Shown here piece after piece: positions 26,295 to 45,127 of a stretch of 49,253 nucleotides of DNA. Within the stretch, counting starts at the first letter, position 1; each line of letters starts with the position of its first letter. The stretch spans positions 1 through 49,253 of the forward strand of contig SVTO01000016.1 of the NCBI GenBank assembly GCA_015063745.1, in the 5' to 3' direction. Origin of the DNA: Oscillospiraceae bacterium (GTDB lineage: Bacteria > Bacillota > Clostridia > Oscillospirales > CAG-272). The translations under genes and the position numbers were made by a program. The notes beneath the pieces are model-generated. The model saw nothing but the letters and a program-made list of their open reading frames with translations. It searched no databases and had not been told where the DNA came from.

Positions 26295-26376
26295 GGCCGG
26301 CGGAGGCGGGAATATTCTTTTAAAAGAGCGGGACGTATGATAAAACGTGCCTGCGTCACAGGAAAGGCAAAAGAAC

Positions 26377-27252: not shown

Positions 27253-27254
27253 TC

Positions 27255-28115: not shown

Positions 28116-28130
28116 GGAATAGTTGGATTT

Positions 28131-28958
28131 ATGAAAACGGATATTGCATTCGGGCAGTATTGCGAAGGGAATTCCGTCCTGCACAGAATGGATCCCAGAG
28201 CCAAAATACTGCTGGCGGTACTTTATATCGTCGTGATATTCATCGCCAAAAGTGCAACGGCCTTCGGACTGCTGCTGCTGTTTTCGGCGGGACTGGTGCT
28301 TGTCTCCGGTATCCCCGTACGGATCGTGCTGGGCAGTATGAAGCCGCTGACCTTTATCATCGTATTCACGGCGGTGATCAATATATTCTGGATGACCGGG
28401 GATACCCTGCTTTTCCAGATCGGTTTTGTGAAGGTCTATCTGGAGGGCATCATCAATGCCGTTCTGCTGGTGCTGCGGATCATGCTTCTGCTGCTGGGCA
28501 CCAGTCTGTTCCTGACCTACACCACCACACCCATCGCGCTGACGGACGGCCTTGAACAGCTTCTTTCCCCTTTGAAAAAGCTCCATGTGCCGGTCCATGA
28601 ATTTTCCATGATGATGACCATAGCCCTGCGCTTTATCCCGACGCTCATGGAGGAAACGGATAAGATCATGAACGCGCAGAAGGCAAGAGGTGCGGATTTT
28701 TCCCAGGGAAGCATCCTGCGCCGTGCCAAGGCTCTGATCCCGATTCTGGTCCCTCTGTTCGTATCCGCATTCCGCCGTGCCGATGAACTGGCAACCGCTA
28801 TGGAATGCCGATGCTATACCGGCGGGGAAGGACGTACCAGAATGAACGTGCTGAAATACCGTCCTGCGGATATTCTGTCCGTAGCCGCGGTGATTCTGCT
28901 GGGCGCGGCGGTATATCTGCTGAACCGGTATCTGCCGGGATATATATTGACACTGTAA
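28131..28958 (+). CDS. ecfT: ECF transporter transmembrane protein EcfT
   Basis: The 275-aa membrane scaffold couples ATP hydrolysis by EcfA1A2 to toppling of S components. About five to six membrane helices are visible, with long coupling helices carrying the two Ala/Cys-Arg-Gly/Cys-type motifs: QKARGADF and AMECRCYTGG. ATG 28131 lies 15 bp after ecfA2. The second motif reads E-C-R-C-Y where many EcfT proteins have E-A-R-G-Y or E-A-R-C-Y. The next gene, truA, starts 21 bp downstream, the classical order in Firmicutes although rplQ is missing upstream here. Confidence 0.92.
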   Translation: MKTDIAFGQYCEGNSVLHRMDPRAKILLAVLYIVVIFIAKSATAFGLLLLFSAGLVLVSGIPVRIVLGSMKPLTFIIVFTAVINIFWMTGDTLLFQIGFVKVYLEGIINAVLLVLRIMLLLLGTSLFLTYTTTPIALTDGLEQLLSPLKKLHVPVHEFSMMMTIALRFIPTLMEETDKIMNAQKARGADFSQGSILRRAKALIPILVPLFVSAFRRADELATAMECRCYTGGEGRTRMNVLKYRPADILSVAAVILLGAAVYLLNRYLPGYILTL

Positions 28959-28979
28959 AAAATGCGGGAGGGACTCGGC

Positions 28980-29771
28980 ATGAAACTGTTGTTACGGATT
29001 GCCTATAACGGCGCGGCATACTGCGGATTCCAGTCCCAGACCAACGGAAAATCCGTACAGGAAGTACTGACAGCTGCAGCGGGACGGGCACTCGGTTTTC
29101 CCTGCAGCGTAACCGGCTGTTCCCGTACCGATGCAGGCGTGCACGCAAAAGGCTTCTGCGCGGTCGTTGCCCCTCTGGACGGGGAAACGGAAATCACCAT
29201 ACCGGCAGGACGGGTGCACAGAGCCATGGCAAAGCACCTGCCGCCGGATATTGCGGTAACGGGCGCCTGCTATGTCCCCGATGACTTCCATCCCCGGTAC
29301 GGCGTGGTGTCCAAGGAATACGTATACCGTATGCGGGATGCCAGAGACAGGGATCCCTTTCAGGCAGGATTGGTATGGCAGCTGAAAAAGCCTCTGACGG
29401 ACGACGCCATCGAACGGATGAACCGCGGGGCAGAGCATCTGCTCGGCAAGCACGATTTTTCTTCCTTCATGGCCGCAGGGTCCAAAATAACCGATGCGGT
29501 GCGGACGGTGCATACACTGTACATCCGCCGGAACGGGGACGGAATCGTGGAACTGCACATAGCGGCGGACGGATTTTTGTACAACATGGTGCGGATCATC
29601 ACGGGTACTCTGACGGAGGTGGCTTACGGAGACCGCCTGCCCGAGGAAATGGCCGTGATCCTGGCCGGATGTGACAGAAGACTGGCCGGCAAAACAGCCC
29701 CGGCGGAAGGATTGTTTCTGGAAAAAGTTACATATCCTCCGGAATGGGGAATAGAATGGGAATGTGACTGA
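28980..29771 (+). CDS. truA: tRNA pseudouridine(38-40) synthase TruA
   Basis: The 263-aa enzyme isomerises uridines 38-40 of the tRNA anticodon arm. The catalytic aspartate lies in SRTDAGVHAKG; FHPRYGVVSKEYVYR and LYNMVRIITGTL are other family blocks. ATG 28980 is preferred over 28962 because GGGAGGGACTCGGC precedes it. Length and motif order are normal. It completes the ecf-truA operon and is followed by a terminator-like hairpin. Confidence 0.95.
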   Translation: MKLLLRIAYNGAAYCGFQSQTNGKSVQEVLTAAAGRALGFPCSVTGCSRTDAGVHAKGFCAVVAPLDGETEITIPAGRVHRAMAKHLPPDIAVTGACYVPDDFHPRYGVVSKEYVYRMRDARDRDPFQAGLVWQLKKPLTDDAIERMNRGAEHLLGKHDFSSFMAAGSKITDAVRTVHTLYIRRNGDGIVELHIAADGFLYNMVRIITGTLTEVAYGDRLPEEMAVILAGCDRRLAGKTAPAEGLFLEKVTYPPEWGIEWECD

Positions 29772-29782: not shown

Positions 29783-29828
29783 AGGCTGTTTTCCGAAGCT
29801 GATATCCGGCTTCGCGGCCTTTTGTTTT
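29783..29828 (+). terminator. Probable terminator after truA
   Basis: A compound stem AGGC...GCCT with inner GAAGC/GCTTC is followed by TTTTGTTTTCC. Confidence 0.55.
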
Positions 29829-29869
29829 CCCCTGAAAATATACTGATTTACAAAAAAGGAGGCGGATGT

Positions 29870-31105
29870 ATGGCACGGGAAAGAGTGCGGCAGGATGAGG
29901 CTGCGGACGGACAGGCTGTGCGGGTGGCAGGGAAGATAAAACCCCAGGTCAACCGGTATTACGGCCGGGTTGCGCTGCGGTACAGGATGCTCGGATGCGT
30001 ACTGGCGGTGGCCCTCGGGCTGTTTCTGGTGATGGTACTGGCTCTGTACGGTGAGTATATTACGTACGACAACCTGACGTATCTGGCAAGAGATTTTGAT
30101 CTGTCCGTACATTCCGACAGTTCCTCCTTTACAACCGTGACCTATGCAAGGCAGGAGAGCATTGCTTTTGTGCCTTTCAAGAACGGCATGGCGGTCAGCG
30201 GCGGTGACGTGATGCGCATTTATGACTCTGCGGGAATCATTCTGGCGGAGGAAAAGCTCAATTACGAGGAACCGGTGCTGGTTGCCTCCGAAAAATATGT
30301 GCTGGCTTACGACCTTGGCAGCCGGAAGTATTCTCTGTACAATACGCTCACCAGAGTCATCGACAGGGAAACGGATTTCCGGATCACCTGTGCGGATGTG
30401 GCCGATACGGGCGCCTTTCTGCTGGTGACGCGCTCCAACGAAACCAGATATGTGGTGGAGCTGTACAATACGGCACTCAATAAAACCATGTCCATCTATA
30501 AGGACCATTACGTCCTGGATGCCGCCCTGCGCGACGACGGAAAACGGCTGGTCATCTGCTCCGCCATCCCCTCGGGTACCGACTTTACCTGCGAAATTTC
30601 CCTGTGTGAAGACGGAAAAGCCGAACCCATCGTGACCAAAACCTTTTCCGGTACCATGCCCCTGCGTACCACCTTCGCACCCAACGGATCCTTTGCCGTG
30701 CTGTGCGACAATGAAGTGCTGTTCTTTGATAAGGACGGCAATGAAACCGGACGGTACGCCTTCTCCGGTATGACCCTGGTCAGCGCCCATATGGATAACG
30801 GCAGAGCGGCTCTGGTCGGCGCGGAAAATGCGCTGGGCAGCGAAAACCGTGTCGTCGTGCTGGATTTCACCGGAAATGTCCTCTTTTCCCAGAGCTATAA
30901 GGAAAGAATCACCGATGTCTGCGTACCCGGTAAGAATACCGATTATCTCTGCGCCGTCCTGACCCCCGGTTCCGTCATCAAGCTGAACGAACAGGGGATT
31001 ACCGAACGGGCGGATCTGGCGGATGACGATACCCTCGCCGTGGAATGTGCGGAACAGGGTATCATGATCTGTACGAAAGACAGTATGTATTACGCATTCA
31101 AATGA
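29870..31105 (+). CDS. DUF5711-like single-pass membrane protein
   Basis: The 411-aa protein has a basic cytoplasmic N terminus (1-38), one membrane helix (~39-61, LGCVLAVALGLFLVMVLALY) and a large outer beta-rich domain that looks like a beta propeller (repeated strands such as KYVLAYDLGSRKYSLYN, NGRAALVGAENAL and NRVVVLDFTGNVLFSQ). This matches DUF5711 proteins of Clostridia, whose function is unknown. ATG 29870 lies 7 nt after AAAGGAGG. The CvpA-like gene follows 40 bp later, probably co-transcribed. There are no catalytic residues that I recognise. Confidence 0.7.
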   Translation: MARERVRQDEAADGQAVRVAGKIKPQVNRYYGRVALRYRMLGCVLAVALGLFLVMVLALYGEYITYDNLTYLARDFDLSVHSDSSSFTTVTYARQESIAFVPFKNGMAVSGGDVMRIYDSAGIILAEEKLNYEEPVLVASEKYVLAYDLGSRKYSLYNTLTRVIDRETDFRITCADVADTGAFLLVTRSNETRYVVELYNTALNKTMSIYKDHYVLDAALRDDGKRLVICSAIPSGTDFTCEISLCEDGKAEPIVTKTFSGTMPLRTTFAPNGSFAVLCDNEVLFFDKDGNETGRYAFSGMTLVSAHMDNGRAALVGAENALGSENRVVVLDFTGNVLFSQSYKERITDVCVPGKNTDYLCAVLTPGSVIKLNEQGITERADLADDDTLAVECAEQGIMICTKDSMYYAFK

Positions 31106-32076: not shown

Positions 32077-34377
32077 ATGATGATGTGTGCGCGCTGCCGG
32101 AAGAGGGTGGCTGTAGTATTTTTGACGAAGCTTGAAAATGGTGAGAGCAAGCAGGAGGGGCTTTGTCTGAAGTGTGCGAAGGAGCTTGGGATCAAGCCGA
32201 TTGACGACATTATTGCGCAGACCGGGCTGGACGATGAGACGATCGAGCAGCTGAACGGAGAGATGGATGCGCTGATGGAGACGGCGATGACGGAAACGGA
32301 GGAGGGAGACGAATCCCAGACCAGAACGCCTTTCCTGAATTTTGCGAAGCTGATGAACGAAGGGAAGAACAAGCAGAACCCTGCCAATCCCGCGAAGAAC
32401 AAGAAGGACGGCGAGAAGGACGGGGACAAGAAGAAGGAACTGAAATTCTTAACCCAGTACACCACCGATCTGACGGAAAAGGCGAGACGTGGGGATGTGG
32501 ACAGAGTGATCGGCCGGGACAGAGAGCTTGCCAGAGTGGTACAGATCCTGTGCAGACGGCAGAAGAACAATCCCTGTCTGATCGGCGAACCCGGCGTGGG
32601 CAAAACCGCGATTGCGGAAGCGCTGGCTCTGCGTGTGGCTGAAGGAAACGTACCCTACCGCCTGCGGAATACCTCCATTCATCTGGTGGATCTGACCGCG
32701 CTTGTGGCCGGAACCCAGTTCAGAGGTCAGTTTGAATCCAGAGTACTGGGCCTGCTCAATGATGTAAAAGCCAAGGGGAATGTCATCCTTGTCATCGACG
32801 AAGTCCATAACTTAGTGGGCGTGGGTGATGCGGAAGGCAGTATGAATGCCGCCAATATCCTGAAGCCCGCCCTTTCCCGAGGCGAAATTCAGGTCATCGG
32901 CGCCACTACCCTCAACGAATACCGCAAGTATATCGAAAAAGACTCCGCTCTGGAAAGAAGATTCCAGCCTGTTACCGTAAACGAGCCCTCCATTGCCGAT
33001 ACGGTGGAGATCCTGAAGGGGGTCAAGGGGTACTACGAGAACTTCCACGGCGTGAAAATTCCCGAAGCCATTCTGGAATCCGCCGCCGTACTCAGCGAAC
33101 GGTATATCACCGACCGCTACCTGCCCGATAAGGCGATCGATCTGCTGGACGAAGCCGCATCCCATATCGCAGTACACAGTGCGGCGTTGGCGGAAAGACA
33201 TATGCTGGCCGACCGGAAGGTGGCTGTGGAAGCCGAACGGAACGAACTGGAAGCCAAGGGTGTGGGTTCCGATGCGGATGAAAAGGCTATGGAAGAGCAC
33301 TACCGCCGCCTGGCCGATCTGAAAGCGGAAGAACTGCGCATCGGCGGCAGACTGGCGGAGCTGGAAGAGGAATGTGAATCCATCCGTATGACCGAAGCCG
33401 ATCTGGCGGACGTGATCGAGATCTGGACGGGCGTTCCCGCTTCCACCATTTCCGAAAGCGAATATACCCGCCTTGCCGAACTGGAAGAACGGCTGTCCAA
33501 GCGCATCGTCGGCCAGAATGAAGCCGTGTGTGCCGTTTCCCGTGCCGTACGCCGGAACAGAGCAGGGGTGTCCTATAAAAAGAAACCCGTGTCCTTTATT
33601 TTCGCAGGTCCCACCGGGGTCGGCAAAACGGAGCTGGTCAAGGTACTGGCGGAAGACCTGTTCTCCACACCGGATGCCCTGATCCGTATCGACATGAGTG
33701 AATTCATGGAAAAATACTCCGTCTCCCGCCTGACCGGTTCCGCACCGGGGTATGTGGGCTACGACGAAGCGGGCCAGCTGACGGAAAAGATCCGCCGCAG
33801 ACCCTATTCCGTGGTTCTCTTCGACGAAATCGAAAAAGCACATCCCGATGTGATGAATATCCTTCTGCAGATCCTGGACGACGGTATCATCACCGATTCC
33901 CACGGCAGACAGGTGGACTTCTCCAATACGGTGATTGTCATGACCACCAATGCGGGCTCCACCAACTTCACCGCCGCCGCAGGATTTACAACGGATACCC
34001 AGATGCGCAATACGGAAAAAACGAATAAGGCACTGGCGGAATTCCTGCGTCCCGAATTCCTGAACCGTGTGGACGAGGTCATCACCTTCCGTCAGCTGGA
34101 ACCGGATGACTTTGCGAAAATTGCCCGGATCATGCTGGGCGATCTGGCGAAGGTTCTGGAAAAGAAGGGCATTGACATCACATTCACAGACGAAGCCGTA
34201 AAGTATATCGCGGAAAAATCCTATTCCGTCAAGTACGGTGCCAGAAATATGCGCCGGTTTATCCAGATGGAGCTGGAGGATAAGATTGCCGGTGAAATGA
34301 TCGACCGCAAGGGCAATGTACGTGCCGTATCCGTTTCTGTGAAGGACGGCGAGGGGCTTGTTCTGGCAGTGATCTGA
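32077..34377 (+). CDS. ClpE-like AAA+ protein unfoldase
   Basis: The 766-aa Hsp100 ATPase probably unfolds substrates for ClpP. The N terminus is a zinc finger (Cys4, Cys7, Cys30, Cys33), as in ClpE, not the double Clp_N domain of ClpC. A charged linker (~90-130, KNKKDGEKDGDKKKE) follows. D1 has Walker A GEPGVGKTA and Walker B VILVIDEVHNL. A coiled middle domain (~385-455) precedes D2, with GPTGVGKTE and VVLFDEIEKAH. After sensor 1 (MTTNAGS) the segment AAGFTTD offers a Gly-Phe loop like the IGF/VGF ClpP-docking loop. The start is one of three adjacent ATGs (32077-32083); the ribosome binding site is weak (AAAGAGA). It lies 16 bp from the dead P-type ATPase gene. Confidence 0.88.
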   Translation: MMMCARCRKRVAVVFLTKLENGESKQEGLCLKCAKELGIKPIDDIIAQTGLDDETIEQLNGEMDALMETAMTETEEGDESQTRTPFLNFAKLMNEGKNKQNPANPAKNKKDGEKDGDKKKELKFLTQYTTDLTEKARRGDVDRVIGRDRELARVVQILCRRQKNNPCLIGEPGVGKTAIAEALALRVAEGNVPYRLRNTSIHLVDLTALVAGTQFRGQFESRVLGLLNDVKAKGNVILVIDEVHNLVGVGDAEGSMNAANILKPALSRGEIQVIGATTLNEYRKYIEKDSALERRFQPVTVNEPSIADTVEILKGVKGYYENFHGVKIPEAILESAAVLSERYITDRYLPDKAIDLLDEAASHIAVHSAALAERHMLADRKVAVEAERNELEAKGVGSDADEKAMEEHYRRLADLKAEELRIGGRLAELEEECESIRMTEADLADVIEIWTGVPASTISESEYTRLAELEERLSKRIVGQNEAVCAVSRAVRRNRAGVSYKKKPVSFIFAGPTGVGKTELVKVLAEDLFSTPDALIRIDMSEFMEKYSVSRLTGSAPGYVGYDEAGQLTEKIRRRPYSVVLFDEIEKAHPDVMNILLQILDDGIITDSHGRQVDFSNTVIVMTTNAGSTNFTAAAGFTTDTQMRNTEKTNKALAEFLRPEFLNRVDEVITFRQLEPDDFAKIARIMLGDLAKVLEKKGIDITFTDEAVKYIAEKSYSVKYGARNMRRFIQMELEDKIAGEMIDRKGNVRAVSVSVKDGEGLVLAVI

Positions 34378-34393: not shown

Positions 34394-37225
34394 ATGGAAA
34401 GAAACGATTGGCACCTGCGGGAGTCGAAAGCCGTACTGCATTCCCTGAAAACCGATATGTATAAAGGGCTCGACCGTTCCGAAGCGCGGAAAAGAAGCCG
34501 CAGACACGGTGTCAATCGGGTCTGGTATGTGGGACGGACGTCGGCGAAGGAATATGCCCTTGCCTGCCTGAGCGATCTGGCCACCGTCCTTCTGGTGATC
34601 ACCGCCGTTTTTGCCGCTATTTTTGAGGAAAGTACGGCGGCTGCGTATATCTGTGCCCTGCTGGCCATCGGTGCGGTGCTCCGTATCGGGGCGTATGTGA
34701 AGGCCAGACGGGTGCTGGAAAAGGCGGCGGAAGAGTCCATGCCGGTCTGCAGCGTGCTCCGGGACGGAAAACTGCAGCTGCTCCGGGCGGAGGCGGTTAC
34801 GGTGGGCGATATTGTCTTTCTGGAAGGCGGCGATGTGGTGCCGGGTGACGGACGCATCGTTTCCGGAGAAGAGATCGCCGTATCGGAACGGGGGATCACA
34901 AACAACAAAAAAACCGTACATAAATTCGATACCGTGATCCGCACCGACGAAAAGGGAAGTGAAGTACCGGCGGAATACCGGTCCAATATCCTGTATGCCG
35001 GTTCCACGGTGCTGTGGGGTCAGGGACGTATGGTGATCACCGCCGTGGGGGAGGAAACCCTCATCGTACGCAAACAGGGCGGTATCCGCATCGGTTCCAT
35101 GGAAACGCTGCCCCTGACGGAACGGCTGAACCGCTGGTGTAAGGGAAGCAGTCTGTTCATGCTGGCCGCGGTCATGGTGATCACGGGTCTGGCATTGTTT
35201 ACCGCCCGCAGCTTTACGCAGGTGTTCCTTGTGACCATGGCCATGGCTGTGGCATCCATGAGCGAATACCTGACCACCATTGCCTATATTCTGGTGGCGG
35301 TGGCTGTGCGGGATGCGGGACTCAAAAAGAATAAAAAAGACGAAAGCGAAACCAGAGTCCATGCCAAAGCGGCGGTGATCACGGATTCTGCCGTGCTTGA
35401 AAAATTAGCCGGAACGGATGCGCTGATCCTGTCCGATATGGAATTGTTCAAATCGGGGGAAATGTCCCTCCACGCCTACAATATCGGCGCAGAGAACAAG
35501 CATTGGAACAAGGACGGCGAGGATGAATATCTGCCCGTTATCCTGCGCCTGCTGCTGTCCACCGTATCCGGTCAGCAGATGCATCAGAGCCTGGCGGGAA
35601 CGGCGATTACGGCCATGTCCGACAAGTACAGACAGATCCAGCAGGCCGCGGATCAGTGGACAAGATGTACGGGCAAAACCATCGAATACGACTTCCGCTC
35701 CCTCGACCATGTATCCGGCAAAACCGGCATTTCCGGCGGGCTGGATACGGTACTGGTACAGGACAGAGAGGATGTCTGGGCGGTGGTGTCCGGCGGCATC
35801 AAGGAGGTCATGTACTGCTGTACGGAATATGCTCTGGAGGACGGGGAAGGGGGATTTCGCTCCCTGCCCATGACCGATGAGGTGCGGCGCAGGATCTTTA
35901 CCTCTGCGGCGGAGCTTGCCTATATGGGTGCCTCCGTTATCGCCTGTGCCCGGAAGAAATCGCCCTATACCACGCTGAACCGGCTGTCTGTGCTCCAGAG
36001 CGGCATGTGCTTCATGGGATTTGCGGCCATTGCGGAATCCCCGGCCACCGATGCGGTGGAAATGGTGCGGCGGATCACGGAAGCGAATTTTGCCGTGGCG
36101 GTGCTGTCCGAGGATACGGAGCATGATCTGTACTACGGACACGACATCGGCCTGTTTGACAAAAATACGAAAATTTTGCCCTTCGGCAGCGGAGAGGGTC
36201 TGTCCCTTACCCCCGGCAGCCGTACCATCGTGCAGATGCCGTCGGTGTATTCTCCCTCCCTGGGCAGCAACGTGAACCGGTCGGATATCCGGTATAAATG
36301 CCTGAAATCGGTTCTCCAAAGCGGCAATGCGGACAAGGCCGGAAAGACCGCGGTGGTCTGCCGGAATGTGCTGGATGCACGGCTGCTGACGCTCGGAGAC
36401 GTGAAGATCGTGGCGGGCAGTGCCACCCGTCCTCTGCCCCAGCCTCTGAAAGCCCGGGCGGATGTGGTGATCTACCCCAAAAACCGGCACGGCGGCTTTG
36501 CGGAAGCGGTGGAAGCCGTTTCGGAGGCCAGACGAGCGTTATCGAATCTGTGGAATGCGGCGGTGTATCTGACCATATCCCAGATTTCGCGTCTGGTGAT
36601 GCTGCTGTGCGGTATTCTGCCCGGCGGTCTGATCCCGTCCCCGTCAGCGGTATTGCTCTGGGGTCTGATATTGGATTTCGCGGCGGTATTGGCCATGTCC
36701 TTTGTCAAGGCACCGGCGGATATTCTGACCTTTCCCGACAACCGGATGGGTTTGCCGGGCGGGAAACGGACGATCGTGAAAGCCCTTGCGGCAGGCGGTA
36801 TCTGGGGACTTCTCTGCGGCCTTCTGCCCGTGGGAATCTCCCTTCTGCCCATTGACGGCACGGACACAACGGGTATCTTTCTCGCAGCCATGTTCCTGTC
36901 CCAGACGGTCATGGCGTGCAGCGTGGGACAGTACGGCAGCCTCTTCAGACACCGGTATTTCCACACAACCTACGCCCTGTTCGTGCTGGCGGAAATCTGC
37001 TGTGCCTGGGCATCCCTGCTGATGTATCCGACGGTGTGGTATACCTGCTTCTTCGCCCTGATCCCGTCTGCGATTCTGCTTCTGCTGATGGAAATCGGCA
37101 AGGCAGCGGAAAGCCGGAAAAAGACGGCCGGAGAAGAAGAAAATCCCTTCCGGGCGGACGATCTGCAGACGGAGGAAGCTCTGGAAAACACAGAAGAAAA
37201 TGCGGAAGAAGATCCGGAAGAATAA
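34394..37225 (+). CDS. Catalytically dead P-type ATPase homologue
   Basis: The 943-aa protein has the full plan of P2-type cation ATPases: an N-terminal cation-ATPase domain (DWHLRESKAVLHSL, GLDRSEARKRSRRHGVN), an actuator domain (VGDIVFLEGGDVVPGDGRI), about eight to ten membrane helices and a cytoplasmic headpiece. Every catalytic motif is altered. TGES is T169-N-N-K. The phosphorylation loop DKTGT reads D348-M-E-L-F, with the aspartate kept but the rest lost. The MITGD-type block is VLSED. The hinge TGDGVND is missing at TLGDVKIVAGSATRPLP. The reading frame is intact, so this is a maintained pseudoenzyme rather than a decayed gene. The C terminus is a long acidic tail (ENTEENAEEDPEE). ATG 34394 follows GAGGTGG. 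It is co-transcribed with the ClpE-like gene. Function is unknown. Confidence 0.75.
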   Translation: MERNDWHLRESKAVLHSLKTDMYKGLDRSEARKRSRRHGVNRVWYVGRTSAKEYALACLSDLATVLLVITAVFAAIFEESTAAAYICALLAIGAVLRIGAYVKARRVLEKAAEESMPVCSVLRDGKLQLLRAEAVTVGDIVFLEGGDVVPGDGRIVSGEEIAVSERGITNNKKTVHKFDTVIRTDEKGSEVPAEYRSNILYAGSTVLWGQGRMVITAVGEETLIVRKQGGIRIGSMETLPLTERLNRWCKGSSLFMLAAVMVITGLALFTARSFTQVFLVTMAMAVASMSEYLTTIAYILVAVAVRDAGLKKNKKDESETRVHAKAAVITDSAVLEKLAGTDALILSDMELFKSGEMSLHAYNIGAENKHWNKDGEDEYLPVILRLLLSTVSGQQMHQSLAGTAITAMSDKYRQIQQAADQWTRCTGKTIEYDFRSLDHVSGKTGISGGLDTVLVQDREDVWAVVSGGIKEVMYCCTEYALEDGEGGFRSLPMTDEVRRRIFTSAAELAYMGASVIACARKKSPYTTLNRLSVLQSGMCFMGFAAIAESPATDAVEMVRRITEANFAVAVLSEDTEHDLYYGHDIGLFDKNTKILPFGSGEGLSLTPGSRTIVQMPSVYSPSLGSNVNRSDIRYKCLKSVLQSGNADKAGKTAVVCRNVLDARLLTLGDVKIVAGSATRPLPQPLKARADVVIYPKNRHGGFAEAVEAVSEARRALSNLWNAAVYLTISQISRLVMLLCGILPGGLIPSPSAVLLWGLILDFAAVLAMSFVKAPADILTFPDNRMGLPGGKRTIVKALAAGGIWGLLCGLLPVGISLLPIDGTDTTGIFLAAMFLSQTVMACSVGQYGSLFRHRYFHTTYALFVLAEICCAWASLLMYPTVWYTCFFALIPSAILLLLMEIGKAAESRKKTAGEEENPFRADDLQTEEALENTEENAEEDPEE

Positions 37226-37237: not shown

Positions 37238-37282
37238 GACCGGCAGCTCTGTTTTCGGGCAGGGAACAGCCGGTCTTTTTTT
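37238..37282 (+). terminator. Terminator after the pseudo-ATPase gene
   Basis: GACCGGC (37238-37244) pairs with GCCGGTC (37269-37275) and is followed by TTTTTTT. Confidence 0.85.
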
Positions 37283-37472: not shown

Positions 37473-38306
37473 ATGGCAGATAATACAAATTGCACGCATG
37501 ACTGTTCTACCTGCGGGGCGGATTGCGCTTCCCGAAAGCCTACTTTCGAAGCACCCCACAAGGATAGCCATATCAAACATGTTATCGGCATCGTATCCGG
37601 TAAAGGCGGCGTCGGCAAGTCCATCGTGACTTCCATGCTGGCAACCGCAATGAGCCGTAAAGAATATGCCGTAGGTATTATGGACGCAGACATCACCGGT
37701 CCTTCTATTCCCAAGGCATTCGGCGCCAAAGGGGACATCCTCTCCACCGGCGACGGACTGCTGCCCCTGGAAACCAAGACCGGCATCAAGATGATCTCCG
37801 TCAATCTTCTCCTGGAAGAAGAAACCCGCCCGGTAGTATGGCGCGGACCCGTGATCGCCGGAACCGTAAAGCAGTTCTGGACCGATGTTGTATGGGGGGA
37901 CCTTGAATATCTCTTCATCGATATGCCTCCGGGAACGGGCGATGTTCCGCTGACTGTGTTCCAGTCCATCAAGCTGGACGGCATCGTGATCGTTACCACC
38001 CCCCAGGATCTGGTTTCCATGATCGTCAAGAAGGCTGTCAACATGGCGGCACTGATGAACATTCCGGTAATCGGTCTGGTGGAAAATATGTCTTACGTGG
38101 AATGCCCCGACTGCGGCAGACACATCAATGTGTTCGGCGAGTCCAAGGCGGAAGCGGTTGCTGCGGAATGTGACATTCCCTTCCTCGGCAGACTGCCCAT
38201 CGACCCCAAGCTGGCGGCACTTTGCGACAAGGGCATCATCGAACTGATGGAAAACGACTACATGGAACCCATCTGCGGTGCCGTGGAAGCATTCTGTCAG
38301 GAATAA
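37473..38306 (+). CDS. Mrp/NBP35-type Fe-S cluster carrier ATPase
   Basis: The 277-aa cytoplasmic P-loop protein is thought to load or transfer [4Fe-4S] clusters. It has an N-terminal four-cysteine set in CTHDCSTCGADC, as in NBP35, then the deviant Walker A SGKGGVGKS, switch DADITGPS, the Walker B-like FIDMPPGTGD, and the bridging CPDC motif in VECPDCGRH. ATG 37473 lies after AGAAAGGAA. Gene order (next to hydC) suggests it serves the many clusters of the hydrogenase subunits; this is inference. Bacterial relatives often lack the N-terminal cysteines, so this copy resembles the eukaryotic/archaeal NBP35 layout more closely. Confidence 0.88.
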   Translation: MADNTNCTHDCSTCGADCASRKPTFEAPHKDSHIKHVIGIVSGKGGVGKSIVTSMLATAMSRKEYAVGIMDADITGPSIPKAFGAKGDILSTGDGLLPLETKTGIKMISVNLLLEEETRPVVWRGPVIAGTVKQFWTDVVWGDLEYLFIDMPPGTGDVPLTVFQSIKLDGIVIVTTPQDLVSMIVKKAVNMAALMNIPVIGLVENMSYVECPDCGRHINVFGESKAEAVAAECDIPFLGRLPIDPKLAALCDKGIIELMENDYMEPICGAVEAFCQE

Positions 38307-38382: not shown

Positions 38383-38877
38383 ATGAAAAAAAAGATGACA
38401 ACAGTACCCTTCAAAGGTACTCCCGAGCAGAAGGCTGCCCTGAATGAACTGATTGCAGCTTACAAGGGAAAAGACGGCGCTCTGATGCCCGTTCTGCAGA
38501 AGGCACAGGATATTTACGGTTATCTGCCGGAAGAAGTACAGCGCGACATCGCTCTCGGTCTGGAAATTCCTTTCACCGAAGTATTCGGCGTTGTTACCTT
38601 CTACGCACAGTTCCTTCTGAACCCCAAGGGAGAATTTCCGGTTGCAGTATGTCTCGGTACCGCCTGCTACGTTAAGGGATCCGGCATCCTGATGGAAAAG
38701 CTGGAAGGCCTGCTGGGTATCAAGGGCGGCGAAATCACCGAAGACCTGAAGTTCAGCCTGGAAGCAACCCGCTGCATCGGCGCCTGCGGTCTGGCACCCG
38801 TTCTGACCATCGGCGAAGACGTATACGGCAGACTGGAACCCAGTCAGCTGGAAGGTATTCTGGCAAAGTATAAGTAA
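38383..38877 (+). CDS. hydC: NAD-linked [FeFe]-hydrogenase subunit HydC (NuoE-like)
   Basis: The 164-aa thioredoxin-fold protein binds one [2Fe-2S] cluster through CLGTAC and CIGAC (C-x4-C and C-x3-C), as in NuoE. It is the small electron-transfer subunit of the trimeric HydABC hydrogenase. The N-terminal helical part LMPVLQKAQDIYGYLPEEV and VFGVVTFYAQF are standard. ATG 38383 follows AGGAGGAAATC. Unlike simple hydCBA operons, six regulatory or sensory genes and a ferredoxin-like gene lie between it and hydB. Confidence 0.92.
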   Translation: MKKKMTTVPFKGTPEQKAALNELIAAYKGKDGALMPVLQKAQDIYGYLPEEVQRDIALGLEIPFTEVFGVVTFYAQFLLNPKGEFPVAVCLGTACYVKGSGILMEKLEGLLGIKGGEITEDLKFSLEATRCIGACGLAPVLTIGEDVYGRLEPSQLEGILAKYK

Positions 38878-38964
38878 TAGCCCGCCGAACCGGAATCCCA
38901 CCGGATTCAACGGCCAAGCAGGTTCAAAAATCACTCCTCACAGAGTTTTTGAAAGGTTGCCTCT

Positions 38965-39333
38965 ATGAAGATAGGAGAAATCGGGAAATTTTGCAATGCT
39001 GAAGTGCTTTGCGGAGAAGAATATCTGAGCGGCGATGTGTATTCCGCCTGCTGCAGCGATATGATGAGCGATGTACTGGCATTTGTAAAAGATCAGGGAG
39101 TTCTGATTACGGGCCTTGTGAACACACAGGTGATCCGTACAGCCGCCATGATGGATATGGTATGCATAGTGTTCGTGCGCAACAAGCTTCCCACAGAGGA
39201 AATGCTTGCGCTGGCGGACGAATGCGGTATCGTCGTCATGCGTTCGGCATTGCGTGCTTATGAAGCATGCGGCATCTTATATTCCCGCGGACTAATCGGA
39301 AACAAGGGGGATTCCTTATGCACGAACCCGTAA
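38965..39333 (+). CDS. DRTGG-domain protein 1
   Basis: The 122-aa soluble protein resembles DRTGG domains, small alpha/beta modules found with CBS domains and HPr-kinase-like proteins. Visible pattern: CGEEYLSGDVYSACCSDMMSDVLAF, GLVNTQVIRTAAMMDMVCIVFVRNK and ADECGIVVMRSALRAYEACGILY. Such genes are commonly found beside sensory [FeFe]-hydrogenases in Clostridia and Thermotogae. Ligand and function are unknown. ATG 38965 follows GAAAGGTTGCCTCT. Its 3' end overlaps the next gene by 16 bp. The second DRTGG gene of this locus is at 41171. Confidence 0.75.
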   Translation: MKIGEIGKFCNAEVLCGEEYLSGDVYSACCSDMMSDVLAFVKDQGVLITGLVNTQVIRTAAMMDMVCIVFVRNKLPTEEMLALADECGIVVMRSALRAYEACGILYSRGLIGNKGDSLCTNP

Positions 39334-39746
39334 AATTTCACTTTGACGTAGACGGTGAGAATTTCTCCTCCGCAGGCGAGGCGTCTGTGATCGTCAAGAA
39401 AAAGCTGCGGCAGCTGGGCTTTTCACCGGATATCATGCGGCGTGTTTCCATCGCCATGTACGAAGGCGAGATCAACATGGTCATTCACGCAAACGGCGGT
39501 ACGGCCGACGTGACCGTGATGGATGAATACATAGAGATCGTGCTGGCGGACCGTGGCCCCGGTATTCCGGACGTGGAACTCGCGATGAAGGAAGGTTTTT
39601 CCACCGCCAGAGAAAATATTCGGGCTTTGGGCTTTGGTGCCGGTATGGGTCTTCCCAATATGAAGAAGTATACCGACTACCTGCATATCGATACGGAAGT
39701 CGGCGTGGGTACCACGATCACCATGCGTGTGAATACCACCGGCTGA
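39318..39746 (+). CDS. Anti-sigma-factor-like HATPase (SpoIIAB/RsbW type)
   Basis: The 142-aa GHKL-fold protein has an N-box AMYEGEINMVIHANGG, G1 DRGPGIPD and the glycine-rich FGAGMGLPNMKKY lid. It is a free-standing ATPase domain without histidine phospho-acceptor, like SpoIIAB/RsbW serine kinases. ATG 39318 lies within the end of the DRTGG gene, after AAGGGGG. It probably relays a signal from the hydrogenase sensor; the partner (sigma factor or anti-anti-sigma protein) is not encoded in this window. Confidence 0.82.
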   Translation: MHEPVKFHFDVDGENFSSAGEASVIVKKKLRQLGFSPDIMRRVSIAMYEGEINMVIHANGGTADVTVMDEYIEIVLADRGPGIPDVELAMKEGFSTARENIRALGFGAGMGLPNMKKYTDYLHIDTEVGVGTTITMRVNTTG

Positions 39747-39809
39747 TGTGACTTGTTTCCACCTTATTGCGGACGGGATGCCAGACCATTTCAGCGTACG
39801 AGGTGAAGC

Positions 39810-41174
39810 ATGAAAAATTACCAGCATTCCGTTTCACTGGATGTGGCAAAATGCAAAGGCTGCACCACCTGCCTCAGACGCTGTCCTACCGAAGCGATCC
39901 GAATCCGGGATGGCCATGCGGTCATTCATTCGGAACGCTGCATCGACTGCGGTGAATGTATCAGGCAGTGTTCCTATAAAGCGAAAAAAGCCACCCACGA
40001 CGGACTTGAAAAATTAAACGAATTCCGCTACAGAATTGCCCTGCCGGCTCCCGCGCTGTACGGCCAGTTCGATAATATGGACAATATCGGTTATATTATC
40101 GCCGGACTGCACGCCATGGGATTTGACAAGGTATACGAAGTAGCCAGAGCGGCAGAAATGGTTTCCGCCTATACGAGAATGTATCTCCGGCGGAAGGATA
40201 TCAAAAAACCCGTGATCAGCTCTGCCTGCCCTGTAATCTCCAGAATGATCAGTATGAACTTCCCCTACCTCTGCGACAACGTCATTCCCCTGCTGCCTCC
40301 CATCGAAGTAGCGGCGGATCTGGCCCGCAAGGAGGCACTGGCGGAAAACCCGGATCTGAAATCCGAGGACATCGGCGTATTCTTCATCTCTCCCTGTCCG
40401 GCAAAGGTCAGTTACGTCAAGAACGGCTTTGCGGGGGAAAGAAACAATGTGGACTACGTACTCTCCGTCAGAGATGTGTACTTTGTGCTGATCGAAAAAA
40501 TGAAGCAGATCGACGAACCCGCGGACTCCACGGAAGCCGGCATGATCGGCATCGGCTGGGCATCCTGCGGCGGTGAAGCATCTGCTGTGTTCAACGAACA
40601 TTATCTGGCTGCGGACGGCATCGAAAACTGCATCCGCGTGCTGGAACAGATTGACAACGAAGATATTCCCACGCTGGATTACGTGGAGCTGAATGCCTGC
40701 AGCGGCGGATGTGTGGGCGGTGTAATGACCGTCGCCAATCCCTATATCGCACAGGCAAGATTGCAGTCTCTGAAGCGTTATCTGCCCGTATCTCCCAACA
40801 GCCCCATGACGGATACCATTCCCGAAAGCGCTTTTGCGGAAGATGTGGTGCAGTACAATCCGTACAACCTCCTGTCCGATGACCGGCTGGAAGCCATGCG
40901 CATGATGGCAGACATCGAAAACATCTGCACGGAGCTGCCCGGACTGGACTGCGGTTCCTGCGGCGCACCCACCTGTATGGCCTTTGCGGAGGACATTGTA
41001 AAAGGGGAAACGAACGCGGACGAATGTGTCGTGAATATGCGTATGCTGTTCCATGATTTCTTAGAAAGACGCCGCGGCGGAAATGCCGGTGACGACTTTC
41101 CCCTGGAAAAATGGATCCGGATGCACGGCGGCGACGGAAAAACCGCAGAGAAGACCGACGGAGGGAATGTATGA
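39810..41174 (+). CDS. Putative sensory [FeFe]-hydrogenase (HydS-like)
   Basis: The 454-aa protein has two N-terminal [4Fe-4S] sites (Cys15/18/21/25 and Cys44/47/50/54), an H-cluster domain and a C-terminal Cys-rich module (DCGSCGAPTCMAFAEDI), as in RnfB/Fes proteins. H-cluster loops are modified: L1 reads S-S-A139-C140-P instead of TSCCP; L2 reads SPCPAK; L3 reads VELNACSGGCVGG where M in ExMxC is replaced by Asn. The four cysteines expected to hold the [4Fe-4S] part remain. This fits group D/HydS proteins, thought to sense H2 or redox state with low turnover. ATG 39810 follows GAGGTGAAGC. It overlaps the next gene by 4 bp (ATGA). Confidence 0.85.
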   Translation: MKNYQHSVSLDVAKCKGCTTCLRRCPTEAIRIRDGHAVIHSERCIDCGECIRQCSYKAKKATHDGLEKLNEFRYRIALPAPALYGQFDNMDNIGYIIAGLHAMGFDKVYEVARAAEMVSAYTRMYLRRKDIKKPVISSACPVISRMISMNFPYLCDNVIPLLPPIEVAADLARKEALAENPDLKSEDIGVFFISPCPAKVSYVKNGFAGERNNVDYVLSVRDVYFVLIEKMKQIDEPADSTEAGMIGIGWASCGGEASAVFNEHYLAADGIENCIRVLEQIDNEDIPTLDYVELNACSGGCVGGVMTVANPYIAQARLQSLKRYLPVSPNSPMTDTIPESAFAEDVVQYNPYNLLSDDRLEAMRMMADIENICTELPGLDCGSCGAPTCMAFAEDIVKGETNADECVVNMRMLFHDFLERRRGGNAGDDFPLEKWIRMHGGDGKTAEKTDGGNV

Positions 41175-41494
41175 AAGAGCTGAAACCCATTCTGGATGCA
41201 CTGGGCATCCGGGTGATCTGCGGTGAGGCGGACGCCTTTGACGGCGTCTATGCCGGGGATCTGCTGAGCCGGGCTATGAGCCATGTGGAAGCGGATAATC
41301 TGTGGATCACCATTATGAATAATGTAAATGTGATTGCTGTGGCAAGTCTTGCGGACGCGGCGGCGGTGCTTCTGGCCGAGGGTGTGACCCTGACCCCGGA
41401 TGCACAGGCGGCAGCGGAAGAAAAAGGCATCTGCGTACTGTCCGCCGATCAGTCGGTGTATGACCTGTGCGTGGGTATTGCCGGGCTGATCTGA
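41171..41494 (+). CDS. DRTGG-domain protein 2
   Basis: The 107-aa soluble protein is a second, divergent DRTGG-like domain (CGEADAFDGVYAGDLLSRAMSHVEADNLWIT, then VIAVASLADAAAVLLAEG and EEKGICVLSADQSVYDL). The start codon overlaps the HydS-like stop in ATGA, implying translational coupling. Together with the first copy it may form a heterodimeric ligand-binding unit; this is speculation. Confidence 0.72.
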   Translation: MKELKPILDALGIRVICGEADAFDGVYAGDLLSRAMSHVEADNLWITIMNNVNVIAVASLADAAAVLLAEGVTLTPDAQAAAEEKGICVLSADQSVYDLCVGIAGLI

Positions 41495-41521
41495 TCTTGC
41501 GAATGTTGGGAGGGGATGCGC

Positions 41522-42274
41522 ATGAGCGAATTTTATTATGACCTGCACGTGCATTCCTGCCTGTCTCCCTGCGGGGACGATGACATGACGCCGGGCAATA
41601 TCGCCGGTATGGCGGTGGTGAACGGCCTGCAGATCGTAGCCCTGACGGACCACAACACGACAAAAAACTGTCCTGCCTTTTATGCGCAGGCACGGAAAAA
41701 CGGCATTATCCCCATCGCCGGTATGGAACTGACGACCAGTGAAGATGTACACATGATCTGCCTGTTTCCCACACTGGAGGACGCCATGTCCTTCGGGGAA
41801 TATGTGGACACCAGACGGATCCGGGTGAAGAACAAGCCCGCCATCTTCGGCCACCAGCACATCCGGGATGAAAACGACGAGATCGTGGGAGAAGAGGAGT
41901 ACCTGCTGATCAACGCAACGGATATATCCATCGAAGAAGCGGTGGATATATGCAGAGAGCGCGGCGGCGTGTGCTACCCGGCTCACATCGACCGTCCGTC
42001 CAACGGGATGGTGGCTGTACTGGGTACCTTTCCGGAGGATGTGGCGTTCTCGGCCTACGAGCTGAACGACGGCGCGTCCATGACGGAATATGCGTCAAGA
42101 TTCCCCGTGATCGAAAATCTGGCGCACGTGGTCAGCTCCGACGCCCATTATCTGTGGGATATGGCGGAAGCGGAACACACGCTGGATTTGCCGGACGATG
42201 ATATACGGATGGGCCTGATGCGGTATCTCAGAGGACAAACTGCCCACGGCAGGGAAGGAGTCACACATGGATGA
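41522..42274 (+). CDS. PHP-domain phosphoesterase-like protein
   Basis: The 250-aa protein has a complete PHP metal site set: DLHVHSCLSPCG (H-x-H), ALTDHNTT, a GMELTTSED Glu, PAHIDRPSNG, and SSDAHYL near the C terminus. PHP domains hydrolyse phosphoesters; relatives include RNase AM/TrpH and histidinol phosphatase. In hydrogenase-sensor clusters its substrate is unknown. ATG 41522 is preferred over 41516 because GGGAGGGG abuts the latter. It overlaps the downstream HATPase gene by 8 bp. Confidence 0.85.
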   Translation: MSEFYYDLHVHSCLSPCGDDDMTPGNIAGMAVVNGLQIVALTDHNTTKNCPAFYAQARKNGIIPIAGMELTTSEDVHMICLFPTLEDAMSFGEYVDTRRIRVKNKPAIFGHQHIRDENDEIVGEEEYLLINATDISIEEAVDICRERGGVCYPAHIDRPSNGMVAVLGTFPEDVAFSAYELNDGASMTEYASRFPVIENLAHVVSSDAHYLWDMAEAEHTLDLPDDDIRMGLMRYLRGQTAHGREGVTHG

Positions 42275-42842
42275 ATTTTCTCTCTACGTACTGGATATCA
42301 CCATGAATTCCGTGCGCGCCGGTGCCGAAGACATTGACGTAAGCCTGAAGGAAGACGGCGAATGGCTGACGTTCACCGTTACGGACAATGGCTGCGGGAT
42401 GTCGGCGGAGCAGGTCAGAAAACTGAGCGACCCCTTCTTCACAACCCGGAAAACCAGAAAAGTAGGACTCGGCATTCCGTTTCTCACCATGCTGGCGGAA
42501 ATGACGGGCGGATACGTAAAGATCCGTTCCACACCGGCAGTCAATGAAGAAACCGGCGAGGCGGATCCTGCCCACGGTACGGTGGTGGAGAGTGTATTCG
42601 GCAGAAATCACATCGACTTTATTCCCCTGGGCGACATGGTGGAAACGGTGAAAACACTGATTCAGGGCTCTCCCGACGTGAACTTCACCTACACCCACGA
42701 AATGCCCGGCGGAAAGGTTGAATTGTCCTGCGCACAGCTGAAAGCGCTGTTAGGTGATGAGATCCCCCTGTCCAGTCCGGAAATTCTCGCCTGGATCGAC
42801 GGATATCTCAGAGAACAGTACGCCGAAGCCGAAGGAAACTGA
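42267..42842 (+). CDS. Histidine-kinase-like HATPase protein
   Basis: The 191-aa GHKL ATPase domain has an N-box LDITMNSVRAGAEDI, G1 VTDNGCGMS, an F-box DPFFTTR and G2 KVGLGIPFL. It has no dimerisation/phosphoacceptor helix and no sensor domain, so it is not a full histidine kinase. Residues ~140-190 form an extra C-terminal part (HEMPGGKVELSCAQLKALL). It starts inside the PHP gene after AAGGAG. Its place in a HydS locus suggests an ATP-dependent signalling step. Confidence 0.82.
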   Translation: MDEFSLYVLDITMNSVRAGAEDIDVSLKEDGEWLTFTVTDNGCGMSAEQVRKLSDPFFTTRKTRKVGLGIPFLTMLAEMTGGYVKIRSTPAVNEETGEADPAHGTVVESVFGRNHIDFIPLGDMVETVKTLIQGSPDVNFTYTHEMPGGKVELSCAQLKALLGDEIPLSSPEILAWIDGYLREQYAEAEGN

Positions 42843-42901
42843 GCGCGGGTACATGAACAAAGTTTACATTTTAATTTATATACCAGAAAGGAAACAAAAG
42901 T

Positions 42902-43276
42902 ATGAAATCTTTTGAAGAACTGATGGCGATCAAAGCCAAGATGCAGGACAAAGTAGCCGTGCGTCAGGCTGCTGACAACACCATCCGTGTAGTAGTAGGT
43001 ATGGCAACCTGCGGTATCGCAGCCGGTGCAAGACCTGTTCTGAACGCTTTCGTGGAAGGCGTAAACGAAGCAGGTCTGTCTGAAACCGTTACCGTAACCC
43101 AGACCGGTTGTATCGGCATCTGCCAGTATGAACCCGTTGTGGAAGTATTCGAAAAGGATAAGGAAAAGACCACTTACGTTAAGATGACCGCTGAAAAAGC
43201 ACAGGAAGTTATCGAAAAGCACATCAAGGGCGGCAAGCCGGTTACCGAATACACCATCGGCGCAGCCAAGCTGTAA
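42902..43276 (+). CDS. (2Fe-2S) ferredoxin-like protein, hydrogenase-associated
   Basis: The 124-aa thioredoxin-like ferredoxin is related to the N-terminal domain of NuoF/HydB and to NuoE. Cysteines lie in GMATCGIAAGAR and QTGCIGICQYEP. It sits 32 bp upstream of hydB and shares its codon style. It may be an additional electron-transfer subunit of the complex. ATG 42902 follows GAAAGGAAAC. The spacing between the first cysteine and its partner is non-standard (C-x-I-A-A-G-A in place of C-x4-C), so cluster ligation by four cysteines is uncertain. Confidence 0.82.
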   Translation: MKSFEELMAIKAKMQDKVAVRQAADNTIRVVVGMATCGIAAGARPVLNAFVEGVNEAGLSETVTVTQTGCIGICQYEPVVEVFEKDKEKTTYVKMTAEKAQEVIEKHIKGGKPVTEYTIGAAKL

Positions 43277-43308
43277 TCGATATAACTTTTAGGGAGGAAT
43301 AAACTAAT

Positions 43309-45105
43309 ATGATTCGTTCTCATGTATTGATCTGCGGCGGTACCGGTTGTACTTCTTCCGGAAGTGCAGCTCTGGCAAGCAAGCTGGCAGAAGAACTCAA
43401 GGCTAAGGGTCTTGAAGAAGAAATTAAAATCGTTATGACCGGTTGTTTCGGTCTCTGCGCTCTGGGTCCGATCATGATCGTATACCCGGAAGGCACTTTC
43501 TACAGCATGGTTACCGAAGATGATATTCCCGAAATCGTGGAAGAACATCTGCTGAAGGGCCGTATCGTAGACCGTCTGGTTTACAAGGATGGCGTTGAAC
43601 ACGAAGATCCCAATGCGGCAGCTTCTCTGTCCGACACCAACTTCTACAAGAAGCAGAAGAGAGTTGCACTGCGTAACTGCGGTGTAATCAACCCCGAATC
43701 CATCGACGAATACATCGCAATGGACGGTTACTTCGCTCTGGCTAAGGTACTGAAGGAAATGACTCCCGATGACGTTATCAAGACCATTCTTGATTCCGGT
43801 CTGCGCGGTCGCGGCGGCGGCGGTTTCCCCACCGGTCGTAAGTGGCAGTTCGCAAAGGCTTCCGTTTCCGATAAGAAGTACGTTATCTGTAACGCCGACG
43901 AAGGTGACCCGGGTGCGTTCATGGACCGTTCTGTTCTGGAGGGTGACCCCCATGCAGTAATCGAAGCTATGGCCATCGCCGGCTACGCTATCGGTGCTGA
44001 CGAAGGTTGGGTATACGTTCGTGCAGAATACCCCATCGCCGTTAAGAGACTGCAGATCGCTCTGGACCAGGCTCGTGAATACGGTCTGCTGGGCAAGAAC
44101 ATCTTCGGTTCCGACTTCAGCTTCGACATCAACATCCGTCTGGGTGCAGGTGCATTCGTATGCGGCGAAGAAACCGCTCTGATCACCTCCATCGAAGGTA
44201 ACCGCGGTGAACCCCGTCCCCGTCCTCCGTTCCCGGCAGTTAAGGGTCTGTGGGGTCAGCCTACCATCGTAAACAACGTAGAAACCTACGCGAACATCGC
44301 TCAGATCATCCTGAACGGTTCCGACTGGTTCAAGTCCTTCGGTACTGCCGGTTCTCCCGGTACCAAGGTATTCGCTCTCGGCGGTAAGATCAAGAACACC
44401 GGTCTGGTAGAAATCCCCATGGGTACCACTCTGCGTGAAGTTATCGAAGAAATCGGCGGCGGCGTTCCGAACGGCAAGAAGTTCAAGGCTGCTCAGACCG
44501 GTGGTCCTTCCGGTGGTTGTCTGCCCGCAGAACTGATCGATACCCCCATCGACTTCGACACTCTGGTCAAGGCCGGTTCCATGATGGGTTCCGGTGGTCT
44601 GATCATCATGGACGAAGACACCTGTATGGTTGACATCGCGAAGTTCTTCCTGGAATTCACCGTTGATGAATCCTGCGGTAAGTGTTCTCCCTGCCGTATC
44701 GGTACCGTAAGACTGCTCGAAATCCTGAACAAGATTACCGACGGTAACGGCGAAATGGAAGACCTGGACAAGCTGGAAGAGCTGGCTAACTACATCAAGT
44801 CCGCTTCTCTCTGCGCACTGGGTCAGACCGCACCGAACCCGATTCTGTCCACTCTGAAGTTCTTCCGTGACGAATATATCGCACACATCGTGGACAAGAA
44901 GTGTCCCGCCGGCGTCTGCAAGTCCCTGCTCAGCTACGTTATCGACGCTGACAAGTGTAAGGGTTGTACTCTCTGCTCCAGAGTCTGCCCGGCAGGAGCT
45001 ATCTCCGGTAAGGTTAAGGAAGCACACGTTATCGATACTTCCAAGTGCGTAAAGTGCGGCGCTTGTATCGAAAAGTGTAAGTTCGGTGCTATCTCTAAAA
45101 AATAA
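43309..45105 (+). CDS. hydB: NAD-linked [FeFe]-hydrogenase subunit HydB (NuoF-like)
   Basis: The 598-aa flavoprotein subunit exchanges electrons with NAD(H). It has an N-terminal [2Fe-2S] thioredoxin-like domain (CGGTGCTSSG, MTGCFGLCALGP), the NAD/FMN domain with GRGGGGFPTGRKWQF and NADEGDPGAFMDR, the SLBB region, the [4Fe-4S] site ESCGKCSPCRIGT, and a C-terminal double [4Fe-4S] ferredoxin (CKGCTLCSRVCP, CVKCGACIEKC). This is the standard HydB of electron-bifurcating HydABC enzymes that use NADH and reduced ferredoxin together. ATG 43309 follows GGGAGGAATAA. Codon choice (GGT, GCT, CGT, GTT) is markedly different from genes before 42900, as in highly expressed genes. Confidence 0.95.
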   Translation: MIRSHVLICGGTGCTSSGSAALASKLAEELKAKGLEEEIKIVMTGCFGLCALGPIMIVYPEGTFYSMVTEDDIPEIVEEHLLKGRIVDRLVYKDGVEHEDPNAAASLSDTNFYKKQKRVALRNCGVINPESIDEYIAMDGYFALAKVLKEMTPDDVIKTILDSGLRGRGGGGFPTGRKWQFAKASVSDKKYVICNADEGDPGAFMDRSVLEGDPHAVIEAMAIAGYAIGADEGWVYVRAEYPIAVKRLQIALDQAREYGLLGKNIFGSDFSFDINIRLGAGAFVCGEETALITSIEGNRGEPRPRPPFPAVKGLWGQPTIVNNVETYANIAQIILNGSDWFKSFGTAGSPGTKVFALGGKIKNTGLVEIPMGTTLREVIEEIGGGVPNGKKFKAAQTGGPSGGCLPAELIDTPIDFDTLVKAGSMMGSGGLIIMDEDTCMVDIAKFFLEFTVDESCGKCSPCRIGTVRLLEILNKITDGNGEMEDLDKLEELANYIKSASLCALGQTAPNPILSTLKFFRDEYIAHIVDKKCPAGVCKSLLSYVIDADKCKGCTLCSRVCPAGAISGKVKEAHVIDTSKCVKCGACIEKCKFGAISKK

Positions 45106-45127
45106 TTGAAAGGGTCGGAAATTACTT

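Follow-up and report, generated by a model that had tools for sequence, protein, structure and literature searches.

Familiar examples of pseudoenzymes exist among kinases and proteases. Among P-type ATPases, the closest debated case, and the only pump pseudoenzyme met in the literature searched, is TMEM94 (ERMA), a human protein of the endoplasmic reticulum (ER) which shows the P-type plan without TGES and for which ATPase activity was not found (Li et al., 2025; PMC12134183). The accessible part of a 2026 paper presents the same protein as an ER Mg2+ ATPase (PMC13322241). In the open-licence literature, where absence is weak evidence, no bacterial P-type ATPase pseudoenzyme was found. Here, we describe a gene from an Oscillospiraceae bacterium (assembly GCA_015063745.1, contig SVTO01000016.1; the window is the whole stretch of 49,253 nucleotides analyzed) which codes for a protein with a predicted P2-type ATPase fold devoid of the catalytic motifs, and which lies immediately downstream of a clpE-like gene. 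Judging from sequence, we give an even chance to the reading that a P2A-type (SPCA/LMCA1-like) fold, stripped of catalysis, is now kept as the membrane partner of the ClpE-like unfoldase whose gene lies upstream. TMEM94 is likened to this protein by described features and not by homology; it differs in being a human ER protein, and its description, as far as accessible, names no AAA+ neighbor gene.

The best match in both sequence and fold is to the P2A Ca2+-ATPases, i.e., LMCA1 (lmo0841) and SPCA1, which have in common with the window protein the A domain, the membrane plan and, within the family of the window genome (f1; f17 and f20 are two other families of the order), mostly also the M4 Glu and the M6 Asp. 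In contrast to these pumps, the window protein is a pseudoenzyme without TGES, DKTGT, KGA and TGDGVND, with no HAD Pfam domain found, with an M5 Arg/Lys in f1 and with linkage to clpE. Its features are as follows:

34394-37225, forward strand: gene of the P-type-ATPase-fold pseudoenzyme, 943 amino acids (aa), ATG at 34394, stop at 37223-37225
34898-34909, forward strand: TNNK (169-172) where TGES is expected
35258-35269, forward strand: MSEY (289-292) in M4, the PEG cation-site motif with its Glu retained and its Pro gone
35432-35449, forward strand: SDMELF (347-352) at the DKTGT region, Ser347 being in the phospho-Asp column with a register ambiguous by one
35789-35797, forward strand: SGG (466-468) where KGA is expected
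36101-36115, forward strand: VLSED (570-574) where MITGD is expected
36356-36376, forward strand: VCRNVLD (655-661) where TGDGVND is expected
36590-36592, forward strand: Arg733 in M5, a position with Arg/Lys in 87/90 f1 rows and mostly Glu (34/47) in canonical pumps
36662-36676, forward strand: GLILD (757-761) in M6, the cation-site Asn replaced by Gly and Asp761 retained (87/88 f1 rows)
37249-37278, forward strand: terminator-like hairpin immediately 3' of the gene, the regional number of such sites being at chance level

As the original prediction had read from the letters, the frame is open over its 943 aa without internal stop and its ATG follows the clpE stop (34375-34377) after 16 bases. 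A Pfam scan (E<=0.001), in line with the family search then proposed, gave Cation_ATPase_N and E1-E2_ATPase only; at the same threshold, the HAD hydrolase domain PF00702 was found neither in the window protein nor in the eight relatives scanned, while a canonical pump (L129) carries it. The top phmmer match was Listeria LMCA1 (E 2.6e-35), aligned over residues 22-306 and 463-808. An AlphaFold model computed from a single alignment (A2, 31 rows, i.e., the window protein and 30 relatives) reached a mean predicted local distance difference test score (pLDDT) of 83.4 and a predicted TM-score (pTM) of 0.81, with the ten-helix plan and the A, P and N domains (helices counted and domain boundaries placed by eye). 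The first 50 Foldseek matches in the PDB comprise SPCA1, LMCA1, SERCA, Na,K-ATPase, H,K-ATPase and MgtA. The best E-value, 3.3e-36, belongs to 7yai (SPCA1), and both SPCA1 and LMCA1 match most of the model length, with TM-scores of 0.70/0.73 for 8iwp (hSPCA1, CaE1) and 0.67/0.73 for 9evc (LMCA1, E1-Ca). On the basis of this model, the window protein is predicted to form a whole P2-type ATPase fold. Chance resemblance is excluded by the phmmer match to LMCA1, the model match to SPCA1 and LMCA1, and the presence of relatives in all same-genus genomes searched.

Within this predicted fold, the TGES Glu column holds Glu in 52/52 canonical rows versus 7/89 f1 rows, and the first Asp of TGDGVND, conserved in 47/47 canonical rows, is Arg657 in the window protein. 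At the DKTGT region, the family alignment puts the phospho-Asp in column 347, with Asp in all 50 canonical rows that have a letter there and Ser347 in the window protein; column 348 corresponds to the canonical Lys and is Asp in 14/96 f1 rows. An alternative anchoring by eye on ILSD/ICSD would match Asp348 to the phospho-Asp, and the register is thus ambiguous, but neither D-K nor DxTG occurs in this stretch in any of the 96 f1 rows, whichever register is chosen. The original prediction was right in part. The protein is real and has a P2-type plan, and the letters and positions of TNNK (169-172), DMELF (348-352) and VLSED (570-574) were recovered, while two registers had to be corrected. Asp348, presented as kept, is unsafe as the phospho-Asp since the family alignment sets the canonical Asp one column earlier, and TLGDVKIV, given as the counterpart of TGDGVND, is in the phmmer alignment the stretch after the proper counterpart, VCRNVLD. 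Further losses, absent from that prediction, are the replacement of KGA by SGG and that of the Pro in the M4 PEG motif. Loss of the phospho-Asp motif, of the Glu in TGES and of the Lys in KGA, together with the conserved M5 Arg/Lys at the cation site of f1 members, would leave the pseudoenzyme unable to pump.

Transport retained as a channel, a facilitator or an otherwise-driven pump appears unlikely. Such a function could draw on the ten-helix plan of the model and on the two cation-site carboxylates mostly retained in f1 (M4 Glu in 82/95 rows, M6 Asp as listed above). However, the energy-coupling motifs and the M4 Pro are gone, the M5 Glu has given way to Arg/Lys and Gly replaces the M6 Asn in 83/90 f1 rows. 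A similar charge is found in the P3A H+-ATPase AHA2, whose Arg would align about one residue off Arg733. In AHA2, which unlike the window protein is an active pump, Arg655 of TM5 controls Asp684 of TM6, as described in the accessible part of the source (PMC10654040). By analogy with this pair, the f1 Arg/Lys beside two kept carboxylates is likely a built-in counter-ion or salt bridge.

Loss of the motifs extends to other genomes (completeness about 51-100%), and relatives found there rule out a single-genome oddity. Pseudoenzymes and canonical pumps were told apart by comparing two profile scores, both trained on the same sets. Within the genus of the window genome, all 24 genomes searched yielded a relative lacking the catalytic motifs, some of these being contig fragments. 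A scan of genome contigs (L033-L110, the best 80 of 86 matches, 78 distinct loci) gave 34 loci (L033-L065 and L093) without catalytic motifs as far as the sequence reaches; canonical pumps account for the remaining 44, among them fragments and a few that deviate in a single motif. Overall, 106 distinct relatives of the pseudo kind were obtained, a count which excludes the window and includes contig-end fragments and a remnant (L215, 61 bits, no Pfam match). Homologs of the pair with an intact DKTGT, the outcome that the original prediction had named as refuting it, were looked for and none was found among the 106. Out of 59 distinct canonical frames, 53 have DKTGT and one DKTAT (L088), the remaining five being fragments (L083, L107 three times, L109); a few canonical rows depart from the consensus in a different motif, such as L102 (NGEN) and L096 (TGDAVND).

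When alignment A2 was run against 295 f1 genomes, pseudoenzymes and canonical pumps were matched on a sliding score scale, and the flanks of 60 f1 places showed a pseudoenzyme in 51 and a canonical pump alone in nine. The pseudo kind has been seen in 53 f1 genera beyond that of the window (clpE visible in 51) and in nine f17/f20 genera. The 10 f17/f20 relatives have no DKTGT, TGES or TGDGVND, KGA being retained in two f20 members. A survey of the order at E<=1e-125 had returned matches in f1 only (14/394 genomes); as these divergent f17/f20 members were found later via clpE flanks, similarity searches undercount the pseudo kind. A class-wide survey with alignment A3 returned canonical pumps with DKTGT and TGES at 29/29 non-window loci; since the profile was too general and most matches were unexamined, it sets no bound on the spread outside the order.

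Canonical P-type pumps are also encoded in the window genome and in many relatives, and in genome G031 one of them adjoins the pseudoenzyme in convergent orientation (L129, 1991-4837 and 4992-7823). The pseudoenzyme might serve an active P2 pump of its own cell as a dead regulatory subunit, a reading which we hold to be very unlikely, as L129 is the sole case, among 51 pseudoenzyme loci of the flank set, that lies beside a canonical pump.

In a tree built without the motif columns, 34 selected f1 pseudoenzymes were separated from 17 canonical pumps by a split supported 100/100; in a second tree, a branch again supported 100/100 parted 22 f1 and 10 f17/f20 rows from 16 canonical rows. The motif lesion is old and a single origin is the simplest reading, these trees of sequence subsets being unrooted with long branches. 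The gene is under purifying selection. The ratio of non-synonymous to synonymous substitution rates (dN/dS; NG86) is 0.08-0.19 over eight pairs, dS being saturated in L063/L065 and YN00 having failed in 3/8. For the pair formed by the window and L033, it is 0.17 for the pseudoenzyme gene, 0.06 for clpE, 0.15 for cvpA and 0.13 for DUF5711; by domain, it is 0.10 in the A and late P domains, 0.28 in M5-M10 and 0.67 in the acidic tail. That the protein is a maintained pseudoenzyme, as originally proposed, is borne out by these values and by the 106 relatives, and a pseudogene or a sequencing error is ruled out by dN/dS, the relatives and the lesion common to the pseudoenzymes in the trees. It is barely credible that a decaying pump gene is being lost here: some lineages have no such gene or have lost most of the N domain and some matches contain in-frame stops, but selection is purifying, some residues are conserved in pseudoenzymes only and long open frames occur in many of the 53 further f1 genera. 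In the short forms, the N domain is largely missing (of its 138 positions, 3 remain in L194, 18 in L214 and 39 each in L212 and L219); these forms still follow clpE. C-terminal extensions are present on the frames L157, L186, L143 and L187 (total 1052-1269 aa).

The genes upstream of the pseudoenzyme gene are the following:

32077-34377, forward strand: clpE-like gene of an Hsp100 unfoldase, 766 aa, likely start ATG 32077, with CxxC pairs, two Walker A motifs and a GF loop
31146-31880, forward strand: cvpA-like membrane protein of the same block
29822-31105, forward strand: DUF5711 protein of the same block
28962-29771, forward strand: truA, in the same conserved block
26347-28958, forward strand: energy-coupling factor (ECF) transporter ATPase and CbiQ-like genes, the upstream part of the block, 27201-28958 being assigned by profile
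26347-27252, forward strand: ecfA1, labeled by position without a family scan

A zinc motif is a feature of ClpE proteins, and N-terminal CxxC pairs together with two Walker A motifs are present in the 16 rows printed. The ClpP-docking loop has Gly in 110/110 and Phe in 109/110 ClpE rows, and a ClpP is encoded elsewhere in the window genome (G000:C47, PF00574, 284 bits). From its sequence, the ClpE-like protein looks competent.

The pairing of the pseudoenzyme with clpE, which the original prediction had suggested surveying, is conserved far past the genus. Pump similarity brought in 79 distinct relatives: clpE lies directly upstream of 74, three are at a contig end (L043, L155, L182) and two have no clpE (L151, L181), i.e., 2/76 where upstream DNA is visible; the 27 other relatives (17 f1, 10 f17/f20) were fetched via clpE, so that their adjacency is by design. 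Among the 34 pseudo loci of the contig scan, clpE is directly upstream in 33, L043 being cut off too near to tell, versus 0/44 canonical scan loci and 0/59 canonical frames altogether (54 with flanks visible, five at edges). Over the part that they cover, most contigs follow the order ecfA1-ecfA2-ecfT-truA-DUF5711-cvpA-clpE-pseudoenzyme; in L093, clpE is the only one of the upstream genes seen. The assigned pseudoenzyme start lies a median of 32 bases after the clpE stop (range -20 to 482, 32 loci). Genome G035 contains two clpE-pseudoenzyme pairs, L184 (G035:C75) and L185 (G035:C123). An unconserved pair under relaxed selection, the other outcome set out beforehand as refuting, was thus looked for and not found.

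Seen from clpE, the picture differs. Flanks were fetched at 32 clpE loci (31 places, L195 being L221) in f1 genera seeming negative or uncovered: at 18 of them, clpE is followed by a pseudoenzyme or a remnant, and the other 14, from 11 genera, have no recognizable relative. In one of the 11 (g52), a different species does carry the gene. At E<=1e-220, clpE is matched in 128/147 genomes of the order, nine of them f1. Among 35 non-f1 clpE flanks from 20 families, a P-ATPase-like gene lies directly behind clpE in 10, all f17/f20, while 25, one of them f20, lack the pseudoenzyme (at L228, no more than 0.8 kb is visible behind clpE). DUF5711 and/or cvpA nevertheless precede clpE in 34 of the 35 (L222-L256), the exception, L241, starting inside clpE. 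There is therefore an asymmetry: clpE can stand without the pseudoenzyme, and the pseudoenzyme is rarely found away from clpE.

Together with the conserved adjacency, this asymmetry points to a membrane partner of ClpE-ClpP. A P2A-type ATPase fold would have lost its phosphorylation cycle and been fixed as a membrane protein; this protein would bring ClpE-ClpP to the membrane or regulate it at that site, and may also supply it with membrane or secreted proteins as substrates. Anchor, adaptor and regulator roles cannot be told apart on present data. The common task with ClpE originally inferred from the gene spacing agrees with the conserved pairing of a maintained pseudoenzyme, but less well with the many lineages in which ClpE occurs without it.

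Several observations weigh against such a partnership. Characterized ClpE does without an adaptor: the accessible part of the 2026 paper on Enterococcus faecalis describes a ClpE which docks ClpP by VGF and works without adaptors, although adaptors for special substrates are not excluded (PMC13125188). In 18 of the 20 other families sampled, clpE has no pseudoenzyme gene, and the occurrence there of the clpE block alone suggests that the pseudoenzyme may merely have joined an existing block. L151 and L181 have no clpE in their visible upstream DNA (2.0 and 6.0 kb); of their genomes, G258 does contain a match to clpE, at an unlisted place, and G146 has none at E<=1e-220. ClpE columns separate unclearly between genomes with and without the pseudoenzyme (14 vs 96 rows). 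Finally, the M5 Arg/Lys, as well as the M6 Asp, is found in 0/10 f17/f20 relatives. Two candidates for a contact site were rejected: no ClpE region clearly tracks the presence of the pseudoenzyme, and the acidic C-terminal tail is unconserved among relatives, with low model confidence.

An alternative, which we regard as possible but doubtful, is a membrane sensor or regulator of ions, lipids or envelope stress, acting alone or with another partner, with clpE co-located for common conditions. Neighbors need no contact, as the block also contains unrelated genes (truA, ECF transporter, cvpA, DUF5711), and with the M4 Glu and M6 Asp mostly retained in f1, a ligand could still bind. However, the conserved f1 Arg/Lys would neutralize the cation site, and clpE adjacency persists down to about 25% identity across three families.

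P5A-ATPases (Spf1/ATP13A1) have a dislocase role, and we know of no AAA+ partner gene for them. They are also P-type folds in membrane protein quality control, as stated in the accessible part of a recent paper (PMC11541931), but are active ATPases of the eukaryotic ER. Their client capture can be likened to a further, rather unlikely reading, that of a transporter with an outsourced motor, in which the membrane groove and the A domain would catch membrane segments or mislocalized proteins and ATP hydrolysis by ClpE-ClpP would drive their extraction and degradation.

Among known systems, E. faecalis ClpE-ClpP resembles the one described here in that its Hsp100 unfoldase docks ClpP through a GF-type loop. 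In the same 2026 paper, as far as accessible, clpE genes are called monocistronic (PMC13125188), a remark with which the 34/35 non-f1 loci having DUF5711 and/or cvpA upstream contrast. The adaptor-independent, monocistronic E. faecalis system likewise differs from the clpE described here, which lies in a conserved block with a membrane pseudoenzyme.

Other parts of the window were also annotated. Downstream of the pseudoenzyme gene, a Mrp-type gene (37473-38306) lies ahead of a [FeFe]-hydrogenase and NADH-dehydrogenase-like cluster (38383-46873), which also codes for a PHP protein, two small HATPase proteins and two DRTGG-like proteins, one of which scored slightly below the cut-off. A thiamine pyrophosphate (TPP) riboswitch (16724-16819) precedes a thiamine transporter gene (Thia_YuaJ, 16876-17577). 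At 20193-22139 and 22312-24258, tandem genes code for 648-aa pectate-lyase-like proteins, 89% identical, with differences mostly after residue 240; Pectate_lyase_4 was found in the first, the second being outside the family scan.

Collectively, these data describe an old bacterial family, pump-shaped without the pump cycle, which is maintained across dozens of genera at a fixed place next to an AAA+ unfoldase gene. Automated annotation may label such genes as cation pumps, which would mislead. Full-length forms, forms with most of the N domain deleted and lineages without the gene make up a natural series from which the needed parts of the fold can be read. The pseudoenzyme is also a concrete candidate for a partner of ClpE, for which the 2026 ClpE-ClpP paper, in its accessible part, leaves adaptors open (PMC13125188).

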